A DNA stretch of 64,000 bases, taken from NCBI GenBank assembly GCA_003161615.1, contig PMOB01000010.1:1-64000 (forward strand), given 5' to 3'. Both the position numbers and the translations under genes were made by a program. The notes below the pieces were generated by a model. It worked only from the letters and a program-made list of their open reading frames with translations. It ran no database searches and was not told the origin of the DNA. Below, in pieces: positions 3,486-3,518 of the stretch (position 1 is its first letter; each line of letters starts with the position of its first letter). The stretch comes from Actinomycetota bacterium. GTDB lineage: Bacteria; Actinomycetota; Thermoleophilia; Gaiellales; Gaiellaceae.

Positions 3486-3492
3486 GAAAAAA

Positions 3493-3518
3493 GCCCTGCA
3501 AATCGGGGATTTGCGGGC
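3493..3518 (-). terminator. Intrinsic-terminator-like hairpin (followed by T6) immediately upstream of gyrB ATG
   Basis: Minus strand GCCCGCAAATC-CCC-GATTTGCAGGGC-TTTTTT-C-ATG; 7+4 bp stem with one bulged A. Confidence 0.75.

Follow-up and report, generated by a model that had tools for sequence, protein, structure and literature searches.

A conserved terminator-like hairpin at the predicted transcription start of gyrB in Gaiellaceae

We analyzed the junction between dciA and gyrB in a 64,000-nucleotide stretch of DNA (the window) from a 2.3 Mb Gaiellaceae genome (Gaiellales, class Thermoleophilia). An extended −10 promoter, a G+C-rich hairpin and a T tract that touches the gyrB start codon follow each other at this junction, and their register is conserved across this family of soil bacteria. 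With a probability of roughly one half, the element constitutes the 5' leader of the gyrB(-gyrA) mRNA and acts as a promoter-proximal intrinsic terminator beginning at about +1, similar to GraL, the terminator in the greA leader of E. coli. This assignment is a prediction from sequence comparison. The features of the junction, together with those of the rpmH leader in the same window, are as follows:

1095–3485, minus strand: gyrB coding sequence (N-terminus matching GyrB in 118 of 129 genomes of the order)
3483–3485, minus strand: gyrB start codon ATG (sequence)
3486, minus strand: single C between the T6 tract and the ATG (sequence)
3487–3492, minus strand: T6 tract (U tract in the RNA), directly at the base of the hairpin (sequence, conservation)
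3493–3518, minus strand: entire hairpin (direct read and minimum-free-energy fold)
3493–3504, minus strand: 3' arm of the hairpin, GATTTGC-A-GGGC, with the bulged A at 3497 (GCAGGG almost without variation in the family)
3505–3507, minus strand: hairpin loop CCC (sequence, fold)
3508–3518, minus strand: 5' arm of the hairpin, GCCCGCAAATC (sequence, fold, covariation)
3518–3519, minus strand: predicted gyrB transcription start at the first base of the hairpin, 7 nt past the −10 element (judged from the position of the −10)
3526–3534, minus strand: extended −10 element of gyrB, TGATACACT, which begins with the dciA stop codon (conservation of TGnTAnnnT)
3532–3534, minus strand: dciA stop codon TGA (sequence)
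3532–3972, minus strand: dciA coding sequence (name given in the original prediction; located between recF and gyrB)
7855–7893, plus strand: entire rpmH leader element, beginning with TATACT (7855–7860)
7871–7887, plus strand: rpmH leader hairpin CCCCGCC-GCC-GGCGGGG (present in the rpmH leaders of the family)
7889–7893, plus strand: T5 of the rpmH leader, preceded by an A (sequence)
7922, plus strand: rpmH start (sequence)

Read directly, the minus strand at the junction runs ...TTCTGATACACTGCACTTT-GCCCGCAAATC-CCC-GATTTGC-A-GGGC-TTTTTT-C-ATG. The original prediction had described a stem with one bulged A and a T6 tract ending 1 nt before the ATG, which is exact to the base. It had placed the hairpin 14 nt after the dciA stop codon; the position is right, the distance is 13 nt. 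We also confirmed its statements that the space between the T-run and the ATG leaves no room for a promoter and that the only bases resembling a Shine-Dalgarno (SD) sequence, AGGG, lie in the 3' arm of the stem. The hairpin has a computed ΔG of −14.0 kcal/mol and is present in the minimum-free-energy fold (z = −2.3; 6 of 200 shuffled sequences fold equally well). A G+C-rich hairpin followed by a U-rich tract is the sequence criterion for an intrinsic (Rho-independent) terminator, and hairpin and T tract conform to it with a d'Aubenton-Carafa-type score of 29. A search of the gyrB leader against Rfam gave no family above the gathering score. Within 12 kb there are two terminator-like sites including this one, where shuffled sequences lead one to expect 4.3. 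A single site of this kind is by itself not improbable; it is position and conservation that lift the gyrB hairpin beyond chance. A run of five or more T within 25 nt of a start codon was found for gyrB alone among 355 genes (370 kb), and GCAGGGCTTTTTT occurs only once in the 2.3 Mb genome.

The extended −10 element at 3534–3526, inside the dciA stop codon, was not part of the original prediction. Its pattern TGnTAnnnT is invariant in the family alignment (69 of 69 leaders of identical register). The stop codon embedded in it varies between TGA and TAG among relatives, with the promoter bases retained. From the position of this element the gyrB transcript is predicted to begin with the hairpin's first base, which agrees with one of the two options offered earlier, namely that transcription initiates on top of the hairpin instead of reading through it. 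Bases 2–6 after the −10 carry about 0.01–0.1 bit in the 69 leaders, and GCAGG follows the −10 at a distance of 26 nt (69 of 87 leaders) or 27 nt (16 more). Five bases between the −10 and the 3' arm are thus unconstrained despite a fixed spacing. Such free bases show that nonfunctional sites have been scrambled in these genomes, so the fixed 26–27 nt between the −10 and the 3' arm reflects constraint.

To follow the element beyond this genome, gyrB upstream regions were gathered from the family and the order; the family set comprises 87 distinct leaders from roughly 30 genus-level groups. With very few exceptions these leaders show the same order of promoter, about seven free bases, hairpin and U tract. 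Among the 69 with identical register, GCAGG(G) is 93–100% conserved, and the T tract is conserved to 99–100% at its first four positions, 91% at the fifth and 81% at the sixth. Conservation of the U tract therefore peaks beside the hairpin and drops toward the ATG. T4 or longer is found in 80 of the 87 leaders. The hairpin base, where it touches the T-run, has an exactly matching 4-bp partner in 76 of the 87 leaders (20.5 expected). This also holds for 18 leaders in which the 5' arm has relocated to a closer position, where an exact partner exists in 13 (3.8 expected), with pairs such as TCCC/GGGA, CCCC/GGGG and AAAGCCC/GGGCTTT. Mutual information at fixed register gave a weak stem signal in the 69 leaders, since the 3' arm hardly varies and the 5' arm changes its position. 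The partner test and an alignment of 30 diverse leaders (A2) resolved it: 85.3% of the cells in this alignment are paired, compared with 55% or less in slid versions, and 19 cells carry double changes compared with 6.3 after shuffling, a value that none of 500 shuffles reached. These shuffle tests ignore relatedness and overstate significance, a fault that does not fully extend to the slid controls or to the arms that relocated independently. The leader alignment in relatives called for by the original prediction thus yields a conserved hairpin with covariation above every shuffle.

The deviating leaders are informative as well. One leader has a spacing shortened by 11 nt and retains the hairpin and T6 (L022), and one lineage has lost the T tract (L024/L050). 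T3–T5 is retained in nine leaders in which the start codon lies 15–40 nt further downstream (L061, L068, L114, L125, L131, L144, L145, L158 and L162), two of which, L061 and L145, have gained a proper AGGAG(G) SD sequence. The stem is only 4–5 bp long in several genomes, with ΔG values of −5 to −8, and the bulged A, four pairs above the base of the stem, is conserved. As a separate observation, L125 and L131 (genus g23) have a TTG-started open reading frame of 5–7 codons at the usual position of the gyrB start, overlapping the displaced gyrB start codon.

Outside the family, leaders of one other family of the order (f3) show GCGGG-TTT-start at nearly the same register without a stable hairpin. 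The gyrB leaders inspected from f2 and f4 have neither GCGGG-TTT-start nor a stable hairpin. In outgroup Thermoleophilia a TGnTACAAT-like promoter is retained, together with a normal GAGGAG SD sequence. On this evidence the promoter predates the hairpin, and the combination of hairpin and U tract is a trait of the Gaiellaceae.

Leader scans of one third and then two thirds of the genome pointed to rplM, rplU, rpmH, greA and mfd, and possibly rpsL, as sister leaders. Homologous leaders were collected from relatives (rplM, L274–L303; rplU, L344–L373; mfd, L374–L403; rpmH, L224–L253), and each sister gene has its own conserved hairpin with gene-specific arms. For rplM, the arms pair as GGCGGAC/GTCCGCC, GGCGCAC/GTGCGCC or GGCGAAC/GTTCGC, and 97.7% of the cells are paired. 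The median gap between −10 and hairpin is 7 nt for gyrB, rplM, rplU and rpmH, 6.5 nt for mfd and 8 nt for greA. The fraction of T in the tail is highest in gyrB (0.73) and greA (0.72), followed by rplM (0.65), rpmH (0.48), rplU (0.44) and mfd (0.34); mfd leaders keep the hairpin and mostly lack the U tract, and many rplU leaders have the hairpin without a strict U tract. In rplM, rplU and mfd the hairpin ends 6–10 nt before the start codon, and there is no SD sequence. The greA leaders of the Gaiellaceae (L404–L433; in this genome at about 7500–7575 of L185) consist of a hairpin, T4–T7 and a separate SD sequence further on, and are likely the counterpart of the GraL leader. A generic scan for a −10 followed by a hairpin, with no tail required, gave no enrichment (8 matches versus 13.4 in shuffled sequence), and a relaxed scan over 1.53 Mb gave 14 matches versus 10.5 expected. 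Because this excess is small, membership in the class rests on the conservation of each leader among relatives and not on the scan. Judged in this way, gyrB is the strictest case in a small class of core-gene leaders (gyrB, greA, rplM, rpmH and rplU, with mfd mostly lacking the U tract). Given the common layout, the earlier suggestion of a control specific to gyrase is not supported.

For a promoter-proximal terminator we propose the following course of events. RNA polymerase would start from the extended −10 within the dciA stop codon, and the first 26 nt of the transcript would form the hairpin, followed by U6. A fraction of the polymerases would release at the U tract, yielding an RNA of ~33 nt, and the remaining ones would read through to give an mRNA with its start codon one base past the U tract. 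As the predicted transcript contains no RNA upstream of the hairpin, read-through would be set by the polymerase's state (speed of elongation, Gre/Nus factors, supercoiling of the template) and not by an alternative RNA fold. For transcripts of the upstream operon, a ribosome pausing at the dciA stop codon, 13 nt upstream, could open the hairpin and allow read-through. Folding of the gyrB leader revealed no competing structure, and the leader has neither a leader peptide nor a long alternative fold. With a predicted start at the hairpin itself, control by an antiterminator of the classical type or by a leader peptide is unlikely. Of the attenuation or antitermination of gyrase suggested originally, early termination is still the best reading, whereas antitermination in the classical sense probably does not apply.

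Several observations argue for termination. Relocation of the 5' arm with the contact to the T-run kept is more easily reconciled with a terminator, whose hairpin has to border its U tract, than with a cap at the 5' end, and the U tract is still present in leaders with a displaced start codon. Genuine terminators of this form occur at 3' ends in the organism, for instance after tRNA-Leu, next to the gene for RNase P RNA (GCCCCGCAAATGCGGGGC-TTTTC) and after HU and sigma-factor genes (names read off translations). By analogy, the hairpin-T unit in the greA leaders of the family, seen together with the proven E. coli greA leader terminator, points in the same direction. On the other side, termination may be weak, given the bulged A and the stems of 4–5 bp in several genomes. 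One lineage has lost the T tract, and as the mfd hairpins mostly lack a U-rich tail, the class may have a function other than termination.

The chief rival, which we regard as a real if tentative possibility, is a stabilizer of the mRNA 5' end: the transcript would begin inside the hairpin and thereby be protected from 5'-end-dependent decay (RppH, RNase E/J), and the U-rich linker would keep the start codon unpaired. The usual location of the hairpin at the predicted +1 suits such protection and counts against the terminator reading; the median gap of 6.5–8 nt places it there in all six gene leaders, and the hairpins of mfd and many rplU leaders do without a strict U tract. Stabilization of mRNA by 5' hairpins is known, and RppH of B. 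subtilis requires at least two unpaired 5' bases (PMC3997798). However, the gyrB lineages with a relocated 5' arm start their hairpin several bases later, which leaves the 5' end single-stranded while the T-run contact is kept, and a stabilizer has no need of four nearly invariant T's. Stabilizing and terminating could also act together.

Control of translation, in which the hairpin masks the AGGG or, together with a U-rich S1-type site, provides a platform on which SD-less initiation takes place, appears unlikely. It would account for the location of AGGG in the stem 8 nt before the ATG, for the short distance between hairpin and start in the SD-less rplM, rplU and mfd leaders, and for the GCGGG-TTT-start of the f3 relatives, which lacks a stable hairpin. 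GCAGGG, hairpin and T's persist, however, in leaders whose start codon lies 15–40 nt downstream, including the two that gained an SD sequence, and SD sequences are used normally in the rest of the genome. We consider it very unlikely that the hairpin terminates the upstream dnaA-dnaN-recF-dciA transcript and isolates it from gyrBA. Its location 13 nt past the dciA stop codon would suit this role, but the gyrB promoter lies upstream at a fixed spacing, so gyrB transcripts would be affected too; an insulator would precede the promoter, and a ribosome at the dciA stop codon would probably overlap the 5' arm. A decoupling of the two operons, as the original prediction had offered, is on these grounds not the main purpose. 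The inverted repeat formed by the arms might finally be a protein-binding operator or another site acting in the DNA, which is extremely improbable, as the one-base bulge, the relocating arms, the compensatory pairs and the different arms of the sister leaders mark an RNA structure; chance is excluded by the conservation.

Among known systems, the predicted terminator most resembles GraL, which stops about two thirds of the greA transcripts, with about one third reading through, and is preceded by 19 nt (PMC6829880). In both, the transcript of a core gene has an intrinsic terminator architecture in its own leader, within tens of nucleotides of the start site, as judged for gyrB from sequence only; GraL has no obvious ligand and shows partial read-through, and greA of the Gaiellaceae has the gyrB-type layout. 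In GraL, however, 19 nt precede the hairpin, the terminator is located away from the start codon and antiterminator models exist (PMC2965389), whereas in the gyrB leader the hairpin begins at about +1, the U tract touches the ATG and termination is predicted. The stabilizing stem-loops of the ompA, papA and aprE leaders (PMC3997798) share a hairpin at or near the mRNA 5' end, but the gyrB hairpin borders directly on a nearly invariant U tract and in some lineages lies off the 5' end. Relaxation-stimulated transcription of gyrase genes, e.g. in Streptomyces, likewise controls gyrB expression; it works at initiation, and the abstract of that report describes no leader terminator (PMC5055605). 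Attenuators of ribosomal-protein and aminoacyl-tRNA genes (leader peptides, T-boxes, L-protein leaders) also set an early terminator before a core gene, but the gyrB leader has no leader peptide, long alternative fold or Rfam match. A survey of 5' terminators in 302 genomes found the minimum of intrinsic terminators in Actinobacteria and does not mention gyrB (PMC2965389). Our search of the open-access literature found no terminator or attenuation in a gyrB leader. Early terminators as such are already known; new is one at the predicted +1 that touches the gyrB start codon across a family and is common to other core genes.

What is known of the control of gyrase levels concerns mainly the sensitivity of its promoters to supercoiling. 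A conserved terminator-like hairpin at the predicted +1 of gyrB, in a lineage poor in such signals, makes control after initiation testable in a specific and inexpensive way. Should the sister leaders show the same behavior, they would form a start-site termination regulon for core genes, which greA links to a proven example in E. coli. A more far-reaching idea, which we rate as rather unlikely, is a shared device in which the hairpin at +1 stops slow or topologically hindered polymerases on gyrB, greA, rplM, rplU, rpmH and mfd. If true, gyrB would be adjusted by termination and not by promoter supercoiling sensitivity alone, providing a route to supercoiling homeostasis at the RNA level.

A genome without canonical terminators was considered as well and dropped, since a few good 3'-end ones exist. 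Other terminator-like hairpins were observed ahead of genes. The hairpin CCTCTCTTCGGAGAGG with T6 lies 27 nt before leuS and is followed by an SD sequence (L334:8926, minus strand), a possible attenuator. In two genera, a strong hairpin with T6 is found ahead of a gene for a conserved small protein of ~57 amino acids (MANHLTPEE...; L305:15230 and L223:9770, both plus strand). Apparent leaders of rRNA operons contain a terminator-like hairpin with T4–T5, followed by CTTTGAAAACTCAACAGCGTG (L339:12064 and L214:19045, both plus strand).
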